A stretch of 64,000 nucleotides of DNA from positions 868,001 to 932,000 of the forward strand of contig NZ_CP143889.1 of assembly GCF_036417355.1 (NCBI RefSeq), read 5' to 3'. This document shows positions 1-7,103 of this stretch, piece by piece; the first letter of the stretch is position 1, and the number at the start of each line of letters is the position of its first letter. Under the pieces are notes generated by a model. It did no database searches, was not told the DNA's origin, and saw only the letters and a program-made list of their open reading frames with translations. This stretch comes from Akkermansia sp. RCC_12PD (lineage in GTDB: Bacteria > Verrucomicrobiota > Verrucomicrobiia > Verrucomicrobiales > Akkermansiaceae). Position numbers and translations under genes: made by a program.

Positions 1-438
1 CGTCCCCGGGAGGAAGCTCCGGCATCTGCCGCCGATGAACCGTCCGGCAGCGAACAAATTTCCGCTGCTGCTGAAGAAGAAGCGCTTGACGAAGAAGCAC
101 AGGAAGAAAAAGCCACCGCCGGCGTGCTCCGTGCCGCCAATGCACTGGGCGGCGACTCCGTCGTGGCATTCTCTTTCCTGCTCTTCAATCTGCTGTGCGC
201 CCCATGCTTTGCGGCCATGGGCGCTATGCGCCGGGAAATGAACAGCGCCAAATGGACATGGTTCGCCATTCTCTGGCTCTGCGGCTGGGCCTATTACGTG
301 GCCTTCCTGGTGTACCAGCTGGGCATCCTTGTCCGGGACGGCACGTTCGGCGCGGGACAGGTCGTCGCGCTGATCGGCCTGGCGGGAGGCATCTACCTGA
401 TCTTCCGCAAGGCCGCTCCCAAGAAATCAACCCATTAA
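1..438 (+). CDS. feoB: FeoB ferrous iron transporter, C-terminal part
   Basis: This is the last ~145 residues of a ferrous iron (Fe2+) inner-membrane transporter; the GTPase domain and most of the membrane domain lie before the window. The reading frame is open from base 1. It opens with an acidic, Ala/Glu-rich stretch (about residues 1-38). A membrane part follows with the FeoB C-terminal signature LLFNLLCAPCFAAMGA, in which Cys residues sit in a gate-like helix, then REMNS and two more hydrophobic segments ending in a basic tail. The next gene, 12 bases downstream, encodes a FeoB-associated Cys-rich protein, which supports the call. Family identity is firm from the motif; the 5' end is not visible. 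Confidence 0.9.
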   Translation, partial: RPREEAPASAADEPSGSEQISAAAEEEALDEEAQEEKATAGVLRAANALGGDSVVAFSFLLFNLLCAPCFAAMGAMRREMNSAKWTWFAILWLCGWAYYVAFLVYQLGILVRDGTFGAGQVVALIGLAGGIYLIFRKAAPKKSTH

Positions 439-819: not shown

Positions 820-1224
820 TCACATCCAGCCGTGCTCGTAGGCCATCACAGCCACAACCACCATCGCAATGAACAGAAACACGAACCACATGATATTGTG
901 GCGATGACGGTATTCCACTGCAACCAAGGGTTCCCATTCCTTTTCCACAAAGGAGAAATCGTCCCCGTTCGCGAAACGGTCGTACAGCGCTTCCAGCTCT
1001 TTTCCCGTAACCCCCTCCGGAGCGGCGAATACGGGCGGACAGCAGCTGTCCGTCTTGAACACGATTTCACAGTGGTAAATACCTTCCATTTCCTTGTAAG
1101 ACTGGAGGCAGGCTCCATCACGGGCGCACACCACATGGCCTGTCGTCCCTTCCTGAAGGCGGCGCAGAGCGGTATCACGGTCGGTCACTTCGTTATTTGA
1201 AATTTCCCATTGCACCTTACTCAT
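820..1224 (-). CDS. Hypothetical protein with C-terminal membrane anchor
   Basis: A 134-residue protein with a soluble, acidic N-terminal part and one hydrophobic helix at the C-terminus (about residues 111-130), so it is probably tail-anchored with the soluble part in the cytoplasm. It has a CC pair near residue 61-62 and single Cys residues near 33, 39 and 52. I recognise no family. It is transcribed away from the 1.35-kb regulatory region. There a TTGACT-like -35 and an ATTAAA-like -10 on this strand overlap two half-conserved copies of the dyad seen at the porin and dtxR promoters, so metal control is possible. Confidence 0.6.
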   Translation of the reverse strand: MSKVQWEISNNEVTDRDTALRRLQEGTTGHVVCARDGACLQSYKEMEGIYHCEIVFKTDSCCPPVFAAPEGVTGKELEALYDRFANGDDFSFVEKEWEPLVAVEYRHRHNIMWFVFLFIAMVVVAVMAYEHGWM

Positions 1225-1351: not shown

Positions 1352-1386
1352 TTTAATTCATCTAACTTGTTGTTAGTCAAGTCAAA
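1352..1386 (-). promoter_or_regulatory. Possible double DtxR-type site over a minus-strand promoter
   Basis: Two imperfect 14-base dyads, TTTA-N6-CTAA (1352-1365) and TTAG-N6-CAAA (1373-1386), each have one perfect half of the TTAG-N6-CTAA element found at the porin and regulator promoters. They start 21 bases apart, two helical turns. On the minus strand a -35 TTGACT (complement of 1375-1380) and an ATTAAA -10 (complement of 1352-1357), 17 bases apart, lie inside the element. The match to the metal operator is an inference. Confidence 0.4.
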
Positions 1387-1455
1387 GAACTTTCAACATC
1401 CCGGTTCTGGTGCTAATCTAACCATCAGCGGTCATAACCAGCCGCGAATAATACG

Positions 1456-1665
1456 ATGATGAACAAGTACACATTAATCATAACGGGAGCCGGCTGCCTG
1501 CTGGCAGCCGCCTGCCAGGCTGCTGCCGTCCGTACGGAACCCGTACGGAGCATATCGGCCACAGCCTCCGCACAAGCCAGGCCCTCCGCTGCCCCGGCCG
1601 ACCAGCAGGGCAAGAAGATTCAGGAGCACAGACGTTTCAAGCGTCTTTCGCTTCCTTTGAGATAA
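1456..1665 (+). CDS. Small secreted peptide or lipoprotein, hypothetical
   Basis: A 69-residue reading frame with a signal-like N-terminus: MMNKY, a hydrophobic core, then LLAAAC, which could be a lipobox at about residue 20. The rest is Ala/Arg-rich without a recognisable fold and ends in a basic tail. It is divergent from the 820-1224 gene and shares the putative metal-operator region. No family is recognised. Its small size and low complexity mean it could be a chance frame. Confidence 0.35.
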   Translation: MMNKYTLIITGAGCLLAAACQAAAVRTEPVRSISATASAQARPSAAPADQQGKKIQEHRRFKRLSLPLR

Positions 1666-1833
1666 TATGACAAATAAGCAACGCCGCACCCCCTACCTGA
1701 TTGAGAATGCGACGTTGCCAGGTCATGCAGACCTCTTCAGTGCCGATGCATGCAGGAATCCGCATTCCACATGCAGGACGGCAAGGAAGATGGAAACGTT
1801 ATCGTGGTTTCACAGGCGTGCGGACATGGCAGC

Positions 1834-3153
1834 CTAGAAGGTAATTACACACTGAACGGAAAATATATTGGCGGAATTGACGTCATCCCGCCCGGAGGGA
1901 TTCTTCACGTACTGGTAGGAGGGCTGGATCAGGCAGTACGGTGTGATGGAAAAGCTGTAAGTGCATTCCAGAATCATTTCCCGGTCGTGCCCCGGACGCG
2001 TTTCCGCAAGCGTATCGGAATCCGGCTTGCTTACGGAAAAACCGATTCCGAAGAAGTTGCCGTCCGCCTCTTTCATGCCGGTCATGACTTCAAGAGGCTT
2101 CTTGAACACTACCCCGGCGGAAGCCTGGGCTTCCGCCCCGCAGATGTTGCCTGATTCCGCACTGCTCCACCCGGCTCGGGCAAACAGGGCGAACGGGCTG
2201 CTGCCCAGGTCCTGTTCCAGGTTGAACGCCACGCCACCGTGATTCTTGCCATTCGCGTGGAACATGAAGGGCTGCAAACGATAAGTGCCGGTGCCGATGC
2301 CGAAGGCCTTTTCATGCGTCCAGCCGATTTCACCAAGCAGGTTGAAGGATTTCCCCGTCGTGTTGTGGAAGGGGTTACGCCGCGGCTCATTGTCCATCAT
2401 GTTGCCGCCTATCTGGACAAACCAGTTGTCATTGAACTGGTACTGGCCCACAAAACCGAAGTTGGAGTCGCCCAGCGGAAGCACCTGGTTGTTGACGAAG
2501 GGAGCCCCGCCGAACTGGCCAAACGTGGTATTGGCATATGTATTGGCGTCAAAGTAGTTGGTCTGGTTGATCATGCCGCCCATGATGACGAGCTGGCCGT
2601 CCAGAAAACCCTGGGAAATGAGCAATTCCGGAAGATAGAAATACCCGTCTTCAAAAACGTCGCAATTGGCGGGGCCGCTCGCTCCCCAGGAATCGTCCAG
2701 GGTGGTGCGGTGGGTATGCCTGTTGAGAGCCACGGAACCGGAAAGCTCGCTCTTGATCCAGGTGCCCTGGTGGCGGCCGGACTTGAACAATTGCAGCCCG
2801 GCCTGGGCGTGCAGCTTGTACCAGCTCTGGCTGGAACCGGAAGTCTCGTCATTCGGCGCAGCGTGATGGCCTCTGGTATACAGAAACGCCTGTTCCAGCA
2901 GAAACTGGAACCTGGCTTTCTCATAAGCTCCCTTGTGCAGATCCGTGAGGGCGCGGGTAAGCGCATCGTTCGGAATGGGCGTGCTTTCGTCGCCGTACTC
3001 ATCCCCGAACAGATCGATGTCGTCCAGAATGGCCCCTTTGCCTTCAGCCTCCTCCACAGCCGGAGCAGCGGCGGGAGTGGCTACGGATGCCGTACCGGCC
3101 ATGCACAAGCCGGAGCAGGCAAACAGGGCGGGTATCATGTAGCTTTTCTTCAT
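1834..3153 (-). CDS. OprB-like outer-membrane porin, predicted metal-regulated
   Basis: A 439-residue outer-membrane beta-barrel protein. It has a signal peptide (about residues 1-28), an acidic Ala/Glu-rich spacer, then alternating aromatic and Gly-rich strands such as GFVGQYQFNDNWFVQIGG and FGIGFSVSKPDS. It ends in Phe (CVITF), the usual C-terminal signal for barrel insertion. The pattern resembles the carbohydrate-selective porin OprB family. The nearest promoter in front of it overlaps an exact TTAG-N6-CTAA dyad, shared with the dtxR gene, so I infer it is induced when iron or manganese is scarce and may import a metal complex rather than sugar. It may be co-transcribed with the small Cys-rich gene 42 bases upstream. 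Confidence 0.75.
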   Translation of the reverse strand: MKKSYMIPALFACSGLCMAGTASVATPAAAPAVEEAEGKGAILDDIDLFGDEYGDESTPIPNDALTRALTDLHKGAYEKARFQFLLEQAFLYTRGHHAAPNDETSGSSQSWYKLHAQAGLQLFKSGRHQGTWIKSELSGSVALNRHTHRTTLDDSWGASGPANCDVFEDGYFYLPELLISQGFLDGQLVIMGGMINQTNYFDANTYANTTFGQFGGAPFVNNQVLPLGDSNFGFVGQYQFNDNWFVQIGGNMMDNEPRRNPFHNTTGKSFNLLGEIGWTHEKAFGIGTGTYRLQPFMFHANGKNHGGVAFNLEQDLGSSPFALFARAGWSSAESGNICGAEAQASAGVVFKKPLEVMTGMKEADGNFFGIGFSVSKPDSDTLAETRPGHDREMILECTYSFSITPYCLIQPSYQYVKNPSGRDDVNSANIFSVQCVITF

Positions 3154-3195
3154 AGTAATGCTGTATTTTGAGTCTTCCTCGTCATTGGCGGATGT

Positions 3196-3402
3196 TCAAC
3201 CCTGCGCGGAACCGGATGAACCTTCCTGTTCCCGGCCTGCGGAGGACTGTGTTTCCACGACTTTGCCGCATGCGCCCATGCAGGATACACAATCCCCGCA
3301 GAGCAGGCGGTACCTGGGACGCCGGACCAGAAGGCCGGCAAGCTTCCAGTACCGGCAGGCCCGGTGAAAGAAACGGTGATATCCTGTATGGGTCAAGTTC
3401 AT
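3196..3402 (-). CDS. Small Cys-rich protein ahead of the porin
   Basis: A 68-residue reading frame between a predicted metal-regulated promoter and the porin gene. Its middle carries the motif CGDCVSCMGACGK, four Cys in CxxCxxCxxxC spacing, following a basic and aromatic N-terminus (RFFHRACRYWKLAGLL) and preceding a polar tail. Such a Cys cluster could bind Fe, Zn or a cluster, and recalls the Cys motif of the FeoB partner at 451-642. The start codon lies about 12 bases after the predicted -10, so the mRNA would be almost leaderless. I do not recognise a family; overlapping frames on the same strand are alternatives. The position and motif are the reasons for listing it. Confidence 0.45.
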   Translation of the reverse strand: MNLTHTGYHRFFHRACRYWKLAGLLVRRPRYRLLCGDCVSCMGACGKVVETQSSAGREQEGSSGSAQG

Positions 3403-3413
3403 GCAACGGACGG

Positions 3414-3442
3414 AAGTTAGTTTGATCTAACTTTTAAGTCAA
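3414..3442 (-). promoter_or_regulatory. Promoter with embedded DtxR-type operator (porin unit)
   Basis: On the minus strand TTGACT (complement of 3437-3442) and TAACTT (complement of 3414-3419) are 17 bases apart, a standard sigma-70-like promoter. The dyad GTTAG-N6-CTAAC at 3416-3431 fills the spacer and -10. It is the same dyad as at 6991-7004 and 7088-7103. Repressor bound there would block RNA polymerase. Confidence 0.7.
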
Positions 3443-4296
3443 CTCTTTTTCTCAAAATACTCTTTCCCGGAACGGATAAAATTCTGCGCAAGTAACTACA
3501 AAATATGTTAACTATAAATTGATTGAAGATTTCCTGGAGGGAAATTTCTCTTCTTCAAAAAAATTAGCCTCAACTAATAAAATTGAATTCACGGCAAGCT
3601 TATACGGCGGAATTCCCGCTTCCTCTCCCTCTCCGGCAATCAAATAGCATCAATTGCAAATCATGATGGACAATGCTATCAGCAAAAAAACTGGTTCTTT
3701 ACTGGCAAGTTCCGCCCTATTCCCCCTTGGAGTGCACATCGATATGTATAGCACGGAAGCTGCCTCTCTGCCAGGCAAGACGTTTGTCGACCGGAGGAAA
3801 GATGAACGTCACATGCAAAGCAAATTTTTTGCATATGGACCACTACAGAGCAAAAAACCATATCGTCAATCTTTCAGTTCACACAACGGCTTAACGATAC
3901 AGAGAACCCCGACAGAATAGAATTTTATGTCTTGAATGACTTACCATGTTTTAATTGTTTTTGTAAATCCGGTGAAGACAAACTCCTGAGTCAGCAACTA
4001 TTCTTTCTCCATGGCATAAACTTTTCCGGGAATATGACAGGAGGCAGGAAAAAATGACCTTCTATCAGAAATCTTTTCTAACAAATAGCTCATAGTTTTG
4101 TCCAGAGGAGAAATATCTTGATCATAAAAACTATATACTTCTTTTTATATGAAAAATTCACCATGATTTTATAAGCAAACAAAAATTTTCAAATAAACTT
4201 TATTGACACTGGATCTGAATAATACTACCGGGGAAATGATCATGGAGGACAGCCCTCCTCTCATTTCATCATCAATTCCAACACCTTAATACCTTA
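3443..4296. other. AT-rich gene-poor stretch
   Basis: About 850 bases with no convincing coding sequence. Short frames such as 3654-3920 on the plus strand and 3679-3861 on the minus strand have no signal sequence, no recognisable motif and no clear start. It contains an exact metal-type dyad at 3564-3577. A TTGACA box at 4203-4208 lies upstream of the RHS remnant, but has no good -10 at normal spacing. It may be residue of a lost gene or hold a small RNA. Confidence 0.6.
3564..3577. promoter_or_regulatory. Orphan DtxR-type dyad
   Basis: TTAG-CCTCAA-CTAA matches the dyad at the dtxR promoter (TTAG-ATTCAA-CTAA) in both arms and in the right half of the spacer. On the plus strand it sits between TTCAAA (3554-3559) and TAAAAT (3578-3583), 18 bases apart, so it would overlap a possible promoter reading into the gene-poor stretch. 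No convincing protein gene follows. Confidence 0.55.
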
Positions 4297-5801
4297 TGAA
4301 CACTCCAGCTGCTACTCCTGGCAGCAAGTCTTCTTTCGTTCCTGTTTACCGCAGATGGTACTTTGGCTCTACGGCACCTGCTCGCTCTTCCTGGGGGTGG
4401 ACGACTGGGGAAGCCTGGAGGTGAAGGACTCCGGCGGCAAGGTGGTGGCGCAGGTGGACTTGAAGGAAAACTCGCAGGAAGCGGGAGACCAGGGCGGCCA
4501 TAAATACCACACGGGTACCGGCGGGGCGCAGCTGCCCTCCGGCTCCTGCAGCAGGGAAGTCAACCAGACTAACATCGACTACAAGCCCTCAAGCGCCAAT
4601 GTCTCCATCTGCAACTACAGCATCGACGTGGTTCCGACGGAGCCGGGAGGCAAGAAAGAGCCCGAACCGTGTTCCTGTGAAGGAGACACGTGTGATAACA
4701 GCGGTGGAACGCCGCCTTCCCCGTCGCTGGCCCGCTCGGGCTCTGCGGCGGCGGGTGTGAAAAGCGGCACGGTGGTGGAATGCGGCTACGACGATCAGGG
4801 ACGCCTCTACATGAAGAAAGTAACCGTCAACGGAACGGTCGCCAGCCATGAACGCTACCTGTACCGCGGCTACCTGCAACTAGCGGCTCTGGACATGCTG
4901 GACAGCCGGAACGTGATTCGCACGTTGCTGTGGGATCCCCTGGAACCGGTGGCCACCCGCCCGTTGGCCCTGGTGCAGAATAATGCCCTCTACTGCTATG
5001 GAACGGACTTTAACAAGAACGTGACGGAGGTGTTCAACGCGCAGGGAACGGTCGTGGCAGCTTACGACTACTCTCCCTAGGGGATAGTTGACAGCACAGG
5101 CAACCTCCTCCAGCCGGTGCAGTGGAGCAGTGAGATGAACGATAAGGAGTTGGAGCTGGCTATTATAACTATCGCTATTACAATCCCGCAGACGGCAGGT
5201 GGATTAATAGAGATCCATCGCTGAAGAAGGGGGGGATGGAATCTTTATGGGGCCGTCAATAATGGAATGGTATTATATATTGGTTATCTAGGAAAAGAAA
5301 CTAACGAATTTGGCTAAGCAATGACTATCCCTGCAGGTTTCATGTCCATTCTTATTATTATTGAGGGAAGTATATTAATAGAAAAATTGTGTGCATTGAA
5401 GCAAAATTCCGAACGGATGTTGATACAGGTGCAGGTGCGGGATTTAAAATTAAACAAAAATGGCTGCCTGTCTGCCTGATATTGAATATTTTTTACGAGC
5501 TATGGTTGCCGGATTAAGTAGTGAAAAAACACTTAAAATCGACAATTGTAATGGCAGTACTTCACCATTCTATCGGGAAGAATTTTTAGGGTTGTCTCAT
5601 AGAATTGATGCTGGCATTACATTATCATCTTATATAAAATCATCTTATTCTATTGATCTTAAGAAAAGTTCAAAGTTAACTTTGAATGCAGAACCAATTC
5701 TTTAACTTTAGATGCATACGGTTATGTTAAGATTATAGCTACTTTGAAAATTCCGTTTGTTATAGATCAAACTGAAGAAATTACTAACAAATTTTTAAAT
5801 T
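4297..5801 (+). pseudogene. Decayed RHS-repeat protein with variable C-terminal tail
   Basis: Remnant of an RHS polymorphic-toxin gene. Pieces can be read in order across frames. They are an N-terminal start MNTPAATPGSK at 4297, a Gly/Asp-rich beta domain with FLGVDDWGSLEVKD, RHS repeats (YDDQGRLYMKK, YRGYLQLAALDM), and the canonical RHS core YYNYRYYNPADGRWINRDP at about 5160-5220. It is broken by frameshifts near 4340-4370, at 5160 and in a 7-G run at 5229-5235, by a TAG at 5078-5080 in the usual SPYG position, and by more shifts in the tail (about 5460 and 5700). The protein is also far shorter than normal RHS proteins, with most central repeats missing. The AT-rich tail after the core is where such genes carry the toxin domain; I cannot name that domain. 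Confidence 0.85.
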
Positions 5802-6052
5802 AAAATATAAAATTATGCTCCAAATAATGAATTCAATATTAAAATTAATCGAAATTATCTACTTTAATCTTGTCCCGCTTCAGTTGTTTGATTTGTCTTC
5901 ATCTGGTCATTGAATAAGGGAGCATTATAAGCGTTTCACATTCCAATCTCATCATCTGATGAAGGATCATTGACATAACCAGACTATTCTATATAGTTCC
6001 GGAATTAATTAATAATATTTTCTTGTATTTTTAGAAATTAATCATCTGTATT

Positions 6053-6406
6053 ATGAATTATCCCGAATCTCCTTTAACTGTATATGAATATCTCGAATCA
6101 GGGTGTGGATGTATTTTTGTAATCTTATTCTTAAGAATCCTTGTTTGGATCAAAAAAAATACTCTTAATTTTTCATTTAATAAATTCCTTTTTCCAATTA
6201 TCAAAATTACAATTTATTTATTTCTGATCTCAGGAATAATTGGAGTTTTATCAACAATTTATCATGGCATAAATATATTATGGAAAAATTTTTCGAATGG
6301 ACTTTTAATATCATATATAGCATTGATTTTTGCTTATCTTATTATAGCTGTTGAGTGTTTTAGAATAATAAATGTATTGAAGAAAATAGAAAAAAGAAGA
6401 ATTTGA
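6053..6406 (+). CDS. Small multi-pass membrane protein, candidate immunity protein
   Basis: A 117-residue AT-rich gene encoding three hydrophobic segments (about residues 17-32, 46-70 and 82-104) with a Lys/Arg-rich C-terminal end. No family is recognised. It lies directly after the AT-rich tail of the RHS remnant and shares its low GC content, the usual place for the immunity gene of a polymorphic toxin. The frame is intact although the neighbouring RHS gene is broken, which fits either an orphan immunity gene or a young relic. The function is inferred from position only. Confidence 0.55.
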   Translation: MNYPESPLTVYEYLESGCGCIFVILFLRILVWIKKNTLNFSFNKFLFPIIKITIYLFLISGIIGVLSTIYHGINILWKNFSNGLLISYIALIFAYLIIAVECFRIINVLKKIEKRRI

Positions 6407-6578
6407 TTTCATATTGAAATAATAATGAGATGAAAATATAAACGGAATTATGCAGAATAATCTTGTGGGAATACTGCATGATTGCTGAATATTGAAATTC
6501 AGTCATCAATCCGCAGGAAAGGCAGATAGGGTGAGAGAAGACCAACGTAAATAGTTCCTATTTGGATAAACACTCCTC

Positions 6579-6980
6579 TCAGTACTTCCGGACATGGTCC
6601 GTGAGCAACTGGAATCTGGAAATTTCCTCCAGAGACATGATGTGTTCAATGCCGCAGGCCACTTCATCCGCACGCGGTTCTTTCATATGCAACACCGTCA
6701 TCAGAAATTCCTTGACTATGGTATGGCAGGAGATTACGCGGTCGGCTTCATGGCGGCCGGATTTGGTCAAAACAATGGGAGAATACTGTGTATATTCCAC
6801 CAGTCCACGTTCCTTCAACTGCTTCATGGCCAGAGAGACGGACGGCTTTTTCACGTTCAGGGCCTCCGCAATCTCCCCAACGGTGGCGCATCCTTTTTCC
6901 AGTTCAATGTTGCGCACGGCTTCAATATAGTCTTCCAAGCTGTTGCTCAATTCGGGAAATCCATTTTTTTTATTCATCAT
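6579..6980 (-). CDS. DtxR/MntR-family metal-dependent repressor
   Basis: A regulator of the DtxR family, which binds Fe2+ or Mn2+ and then represses metal-uptake genes. It has an N-terminal winged helix (about residues 10-65, including VGEIAEALNVKKPSVSLAMKQLKERGLV) and a helical metal-binding and dimer domain with the typical HTIVKEFL and CGIEHIMS residues. It lacks the SH3-like third domain, as MntR does. The frame can be extended upstream to 7007, but the first codons would then run through the operator at 6991-7004. I therefore place the start at the double ATG at 6980/6977, giving 133 residues. It is likely autoregulated. Whether it senses iron or manganese cannot be decided here. Confidence 0.88.
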   Translation of the reverse strand: MMNKKNGFPELSNSLEDYIEAVRNIELEKGCATVGEIAEALNVKKPSVSLAMKQLKERGLVEYTQYSPIVLTKSGRHEADRVISCHTIVKEFLMTVLHMKEPRADEVACGIEHIMSLEEISRFQLLTDHVRKY

Positions 6981-6990
6981 CACAGAACTA

Positions 6991-7027
6991 TTAGATTCAA
7001 CTAACACAACAATATATTAAGTGTCAA
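6991..7027 (-). promoter_or_regulatory. dtxR promoter with operator
   Basis: On the minus strand TTGACA (complement of 7022-7027) is followed after 17 bases by TTAGTT. The dyad TTAG-ATTCAA-CTAA at 6991-7004 covers this -10. The layout is the same as at the porin promoter and indicates autoregulation. Confidence 0.65.
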
Positions 7028-7087
7028 TGAAGTCAATTACTTCCTGAATAAATATTAGTAATGGCAAACTTTTTTCTTGCGAGCTCT

Positions 7088-7103
7088 GTTAGCTTGAACT
7101 AAC
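7088..7103. promoter_or_regulatory. Second DtxR-type dyad upstream of dtxR
   Basis: GTTAG-CTTGAA-CTAAC is a 16-base dyad with perfect 5-base arms, 98 bases upstream of the promoter-proximal site. It may allow looping or cooperative repression of dtxR, or control something read to the right. Confidence 0.6.

Follow-up and report, generated by a model that had tools for sequence, protein, structure and literature searches.

A TTAG-N6-CTAA dyad as the putative operator of DtxR/MntR-family metalloregulators in Akkermansia

A stretch of 64,000 nucleotides from Akkermansia sp. RCC_12PD (contig NZ_CP143889.1, positions 868,001 to 932,000; the window) carries exact copies of a 14-bp dyad, TTAG-N6-CTAA, upstream of a gene for a DtxR-family regulator (dtxR1) and of a gene for an OprB-family porin (oprB). 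As judged from the sequences analyzed, the motif is genuine and identifies a regulon found across the genus, a variant of the known DtxR-type control. It very probably serves as the operator of DtxR/MntR-family metalloregulators across Akkermansia, in a 14-bp form for a single dimer and with Fe(II) as the metal most likely sensed. The computed results are the sites and how widely they are conserved in the genus, the genes that follow them, their location relative to predicted promoters, the protein family and the metal ligands assigned by alignment. Akkermansia is a prominent gut bacterium of the mucus layer. A search of a literature library found no prior account of iron regulation in Akkermansia or of this regulon, and passages of PMC12574912, PMC8262928 and PMC11533511 held no usable one.

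If this reading is correct, one 14-bp sign would give a list of iron-responsive genes for the genus and would tie an OprB-type porin to metal starvation. It would also make available numerous natural cases of the one-dimer DtxR operator that was proposed for IdeR, together with a naturally occurring Mn/Fe hybrid site for testing what sets metal choice in the family.

Distribution and conservation of the dyad

Four exact dyads are present in the window, as reported in a first-pass annotation of this DNA, compared with 0.21 expected, and none of 100 shuffles reached four. All four are putative operators on the minus strand. The proximal dtxR1 copy (6991-7004) is located 10 bp ahead of the ATG of dtxR1 (at 6980), and the distal copy (7089-7102) lies 98 bp from it. 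The proximal oprB copy (3417-3430) fills the −35/−10 spacer of a predicted TTGACT-N17-TAACTT promoter, and the distal copy is at 3564-3577. The copies at 3417 and 6991 had been described as overlapping a promoter in the same position. This holds for 3417 and is only approximate for 6991, where the dyad follows shortly after a predicted TTGACT-N16-TATTGT or else covers the weak −10 sequence of an alternative promoter. Promoters were predicted with a generic sigma-70 score.

The genome of the window (G000), a single contig of 3,168,262 bases, contains 16 exact sites. Control dyads made of the same letters occurred 2 (CTAA-N6-TTAG), 43 (AATC-N6-GATT) and 49 (GATT-N6-AATC) times. Because two of these controls outnumber the motif, the raw count is not decisive, and judging the motif by it was rejected. 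The hand-counted numbers of TTAG-Nk-CTAA for k = 1 to 12 were 3, 1, 4, 0, 1, 16, 11, 1, 4, 2, 4 and 0; the six-base spacer thus accounts for 16 of 47 sites, with k = 7 second, and the Poisson values for spacing assume even counts across k, which k = 7 contradicts. Three of the 11 TTAG-N7-CTAA sites are one identical sequence, and the excess at this spacing has no explanation. Fourteen of the 16 dyads lie no more than 450 bp upstream of a called gene, as does one control site in a sample of 17 from 49 (Fisher p = 2e-6; genes were called by our own codon-usage script, and the control sites marked as intergenic include unrecognized coding DNA). The first-pass annotation had made its case depend on such a genome-wide scan, and the scan revealed strong enrichment at promoters, with iron-type genes downstream. 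The other two G000 dyads, at 1051969 and 1143790, are unexplained: the one at 1051969 lies inside a gene resembling rplO and is kept in G001, G005 and G006, and the other has no gene start nearby. Further unexplained sites outside the shared set were found at 2349227 and 2897041 in G001, 388196, 588441 and 1216442 in G004, 473343, 1573016 and 1831318 in G005, and 500423 and 1157675 in G006. The sites at G004 1216442, G005 473343 and G006 500423 have a 225-aa gene downstream in common.

Two sites each precede oprB and dtxR1 in the genome of the window. A feoA-feoA-feoB-FeoB_associated cluster follows a dyad at genome position 864658, outside the window; its membership in the Feo system is given by feoA (PF04023), a FeoB match and FeoB_associated, together with the dyad upstream. 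Single dyads precede dtxR2, whose product is a paralogue 52% identical to DtxR1, and nuoD, a flavodoxin gene, the enolase gene eno, and genes for a DUF3472 protein and an Amidase_2 protein. Dyads also stand before the genes of two P1B ATPases, one of the Cd/Zn type and one of the copper type, and before a FeoB-like gene without the GTPase part. This FeoB-like gene (G000:C1:2211242-2212492; L010) encodes 416 aa with Gate and FeoB_C domains, has its dyad 16 bp upstream, and has a counterpart in G001 only.

Both arms were intact at 48 of 56 orthologous places in G001, G004, G005 and G006 (13, 13, 12 and 10 of 14, respectively), where about 3.4 were expected from neutral drift at the local identity. 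Identity at the orthologous sites was 58% for the six middle bases and 67% for the flanks, the latter measured at retained sites only. The eight lost places were those of flavodoxin (G001 and G006), eno (G006), the amidase (G005 and G006) and the FeoB-like gene (G004, G005 and G006). The oprB operator pair was present in all five genomes compared. Two exact dyads were found upstream in 13 of 13 dtxR1 loci, and one in each of the seven dtxR2 loci examined, all of these loci belonging to the close clade. Loci from Akkermansia and Akkermansiaceae records match the dtxR gene of the window with 82-97% identity.

In distant species, 20 loci picked by the stricter pattern TTAGNNTNAACTAA led to feoA-feoB (10), an EFR1-like ferredoxin (5), enolase (3), imelysin (1) and flavodoxin (1). 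Two of the three enolase loci have the chosen site downstream of eno, with further sites upstream. One of the EFR1-like proteins scored 65.4 of 75 bits, and the other four were called by likeness. A test blind to the motif was performed on the 30 best-scoring feoA loci of 70 matching genomes (76 in total); the 30 belong to other Akkermansia species, and none is from a genome with dtxR1. At least one exact dyad was found within 180 bp upstream of feoA in 30 of 30 loci and two dyads in 19, the paired dyads being 28-35 bp apart; five control dyads scored 0, 0, 0, 0 and 1 of 30 at the same loci. Outside the genus, no dyad was detected within 180 bp upstream at 18 feoA loci, 25 Nramp-family loci had none at all, and 3 of 21 dtxR-like loci had one about 76-108 bp upstream. 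Two overlapping feoA loci of one outside genome share a single site 492-744 bp upstream.

In G000, G001, G004 and G005, the proximal oprB dyad lies in the spacer of TTGACT-N17-TAACTT; in G057 the spacer of the corresponding promoter is N16. Around the dyad, the four distant feo promoters that were displayed have TTGAC(A/T)-N17-TAAACT, and the flavodoxin, EFR1-like and dtxR2 promoters have a similar layout with weaker boxes. In the feo promoter of the G000 clade, a degenerate TTTG-N6-CTAA occupies the spacer (kept in 5 of 5), and an exact dyad is located 88-90 bp further upstream (87 in G000). The position between the −35 and −10 sequences in several promoters fits a repressor operator. The dyad ends 7-8 bp before the −35 box of imelysin (2 of 2) and of the P1B ATPase (4 of 4 displayed), and by analogy with MntR (PMC11275975) such sites may possibly serve activation.

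The regulators and the sensed metal

dtxR1 (6579-6980, minus strand) encodes a short DtxR/MntR-family regulator of 133 aa with the DNA-binding domain PF01325 (52 bits, cut-off 26) and the metal-binding and dimerization domain PF02742 (46.9 bits, cut-off 27). The protein ends after the latter domain, with no C-terminal SH3-like domain and no further Pfam family, and FeoA domains were found in neither DtxR1 nor DtxR2. The best PDB relatives of DtxR1 are MntR proteins, and the cut-offs of the NCBIfam MntR equivalogs were missed (76.1 of 138 and 75.4 of 153 bits). Alignment assigned D17, E20, H86, C109, E112 and H113 as metal ligands, with C109 at the position of Glu99 in MntR and Cys102 in DtxR. 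The same set was found in all 13 dtxR1 loci and in all 26 other loci of the genus (one genome was counted twice). The Glu99 position is thus occupied by Cys in all 39 rows of the genus, and by Glu in each of the 21 family homologues outside the genus. A further DtxR-family gene (G004:C2:654479-655123, with similar genes in G008, G011 and G044) has a 229-aa frame including a FeoA domain and is followed by another feoA, an arrangement that recalls PgMntR.

From these data we infer DtxR binding, the sensed metal and the direction of control. A metal-loaded dimer of DtxR1 and/or DtxR2, most likely carrying Fe(II), would occupy one 14-bp dyad. At the promoters of oprB and flavodoxin and at the feo promoters of other species, the dimer would lie between the −35 and −10 sequences and block transcription, and metal shortage would release feoAB-dependent ferrous uptake, the OprB porin, flavodoxin and the regulators themselves. 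At the imelysin/EfeO-like gene and the heavy-metal ATPase gene, a dimer just upstream of −35 could activate. The first-pass annotation had proposed a single metal regulon with the local DtxR-family protein as its binder, and this proposal agrees with the sites and genes described here, in which such a regulator is the likely binder.

Several findings weigh against this reading. At 19 DtxR loci of distant members of the genus (18 genomes), no exact dyad was found at the dtxR gene itself; self-control of dtxR is therefore not general. In the 72 compiled sites, which were picked for exact arms and are informative in the middle and flanks only, the G at position 5 of the IdeR box is found in 5 and the C at position 10 in 13, so that neither is kept. 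Furthermore, the enolase, amidase and DUF3472 genes are not classical iron genes. G021 and G039, two of the 30 genomes with the feo motif, gave no DtxR hit, and all eight genomes checked have a Fur-family gene; both findings would suit a genuine iron operator bound by another regulator, for example a Fur-family protein. We nevertheless consider such a binder very unlikely. The two genomes are 84% complete, the dyad is the core of the DtxR-family box, in the close clade it precedes both dtxR genes, and the Fur box is unlike TTAG-N6-CTAA. An origin of the sites as chance copies of an AT-rich palindrome in intergenic DNA is extremely improbable. Reversed dyads outnumber the motif in the genome (43 and 49), and copies with one mismatch are no more frequent in the window than chance predicts; however, the spacing, the position at promoters, the arms kept at 48 of 56 places and the recurrence before 30 of 30 feoA loci contradict it, and this explanation was rejected. 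The Fur-family gene of G000 (C1, about 702.3 kb; L088 1429-2656) adjoins an ORF (open reading frame) that is sufC-like by eye.

The sensed metal is the point on which a real alternative exists, namely Mn(II), or both metals. An MntR regulon with the same operator and regulator, in which Feo imports manganese, is unlikely in our estimation but has definite support. The closest named models and PDB relatives of DtxR1 are MntR, and PgMntR, which has the same ligand set, responds to Mn and controls an Mn-carrying FeoB (PMC4805248). Nramp was over the cut-off in none of eight genomes of the genus, compared with 15 of 21 others, so that another Mn importer, such as an ABC or ZIP one, would be needed. 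On the other hand, the genes behind the dyad (feoAB, flavodoxin, EFR1-like ferredoxin, EfeO-like imelysin and nuoD) form an iron-type set, and Cys at the Glu99 position is the ligand of an iron sensor (DtxR Cys102). Fe(II) is favored on these predicted features. A more far-reaching interpretation, which we offer tentatively and regard as rather doubtful, is that the iron economy is run by an MntR-built sensor with Cys in the Mn site, that is, by a natural change from an Mn to an Fe sensor, whose one-dimer operator would also govern complex I and enolase. It is suggested because Cys (39 of 39) replaces Glu (21 of 21), Nramp was not found in the eight genus genomes, and feo operators were seen in the genus only. 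However, very long branches separate the genus from the outside sequences in the tree, and no neighboring genes are shared. A simple Glu-to-Cys switch in an orthologous MntR is weakened by these observations, and the sensor may therefore be an acquired, different subfamily and not a changed orthologue.

The porin and neighboring genes of the window

The porin gene (1834-3153, minus strand) encodes 439 aa and matches the OprB family (PF04966, 7.8e-21; 75.3 bits, cut-off 22.9). Its predicted regulation supports its placement in the regulon, in line with the earlier proposal of a metal-starvation gene. The added claim that it is not a sugar porin does not follow, because regulation does not give the substrate. 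In L072, L111 and L015, another OprB (27-29% identical) is in the place of the porin; the operator pair is upstream of it in L072 and L111, and two exact dyads are in the matching place in L015. Compared with L104, these loci suggest a porin exchange under kept regulation, with a closely similar promoter and operator pair (G004 versus G005).

Two degenerate copies of the dyad, at 1352-1365 (two mismatches) and 1373-1386 (one mismatch), form a pair with no strand assigned. They had been listed as half-conserved copies. In 5 of 8 related loci the pair is retained with identical arm mismatches, and L079 has a degenerate form in addition; by count it is at chance level, since the window contains 8 copies with at most one mismatch, including the 4 exact ones, and 8.76 are expected. 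The pair sits between a Cys-rich ORF of 134 aa (823-1224, minus strand) and a small lipoprotein-like ORF of 69 aa (1456-1665, plus strand) with a lipobox-like LAAAC, an identical C-terminus, EHRRFKRLSLPLR, in 7 of 7 sequences, and no family in Pfam or NCBIfam. The small ORF accompanies this OprB type in all six loci that have it (L096, L012, L013, L014, L104 and L079). In L072, L111 and L015 the Cys-rich ORF is kept, and the degenerate copies, the small ORF and this OprB type are missing. The Cys-rich ORF was thus rejected as the owner of the copies, and its proposed link to the regulon is not supported. The copies more likely serve the small ORF, because they track it and not the Cys-rich ORF across related loci. 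An alternative candidate for that link, the 63-aa ORF (451-639), has no dyad of its own, the dyad of the feo cluster being outside the window.

This 63-aa ORF (451-642 as a feature, plus strand) encodes a FeoB-associated Cys-rich membrane protein (PF12669, over the cut-off) and lies downstream of feoB at the end of the feo cluster. The 3' part of feoB is at 124-438 (plus strand; match of NCBIfam FeoB PRK09554 to the C-terminal end), and the gene starts outside the window. feoB (window 3-438; L001 10342-13438) appears as two overlapping frames, L001 10342-12795 and 12656-13438, and the 817-aa frame ends early, by artefact or frameshift. About 3600-6500 of the window, between dtxR1 and oprB, is DNA with no counterpart seen in relatives; neither the ORF at 4355-5080, which is RHS-like by eye, nor that at 6053-6406 had a match in nine related loci.

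Comparison with known systems

The likeness to the DtxR/IdeR box, pointed out in the first-pass annotation, is borne out: TTAG-N6-CTAA corresponds to the first 14 of the 19 bp of the IdeR/DtxR box, TTAGGTTAGSCTAACCTAA (PMC8464063). IdeR was reported to form a one-dimer complex at the nuo promoter, and a 14-bp consensus, TTAGGNNNNCCTAA, was proposed (PMC8464063). The two systems are alike in the core, in single 14-bp dyads, in a site at the nuo cluster, in iron-type genes and in operators over promoters. The arms TTAG and CTAA fit the 19-bp box and TTAGGNNNNCCTAA, whereas positions 5 and 10 are free in Akkermansia (mostly T and A). DtxR1 also lacks SH3, and Asp replaces Met at its metal site. 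The residue that we take to be the counterpart of IdeR Gln43 is Leu, Ser, Ala or Val in Akkermansia DtxR. In IdeR, Gln43 reads the first cytosine of the box (PMC8464063), and its replacement fits the loss of the inner G/C without proving it.

Bacillus subtilis MntR (PDB 1on1 and others) is likewise a short two-domain protein, and its Asp, Glu, His, Glu and His ligands align with those of DtxR1. Akkermansia differs from it in having Cys for Glu99 and iron-type targets, and in scores below the MntR equivalog cut-offs. MntR represses at promoters as a single dimer and activates exporters from upstream sites (PMC11275975). PgMntR of Porphyromonas gingivalis has a hybrid site (Asp/Cys/Glu/His) to which Mn(II) as well as Fe(II) binds, and it is reported to be Mn-activated (PMC4805248). 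It shares the ligand set and the control of a feoB gene with the Akkermansia regulators; it differs in its two C-terminal FeoA domains, which are absent from DtxR1 and DtxR2. For the porin, a precedent is provided by Slr1908 of Synechocystis, an iron-transporting porin that serves inorganic iron uptake and is discussed beside OprB-domain porins (cited in PMC9705863).

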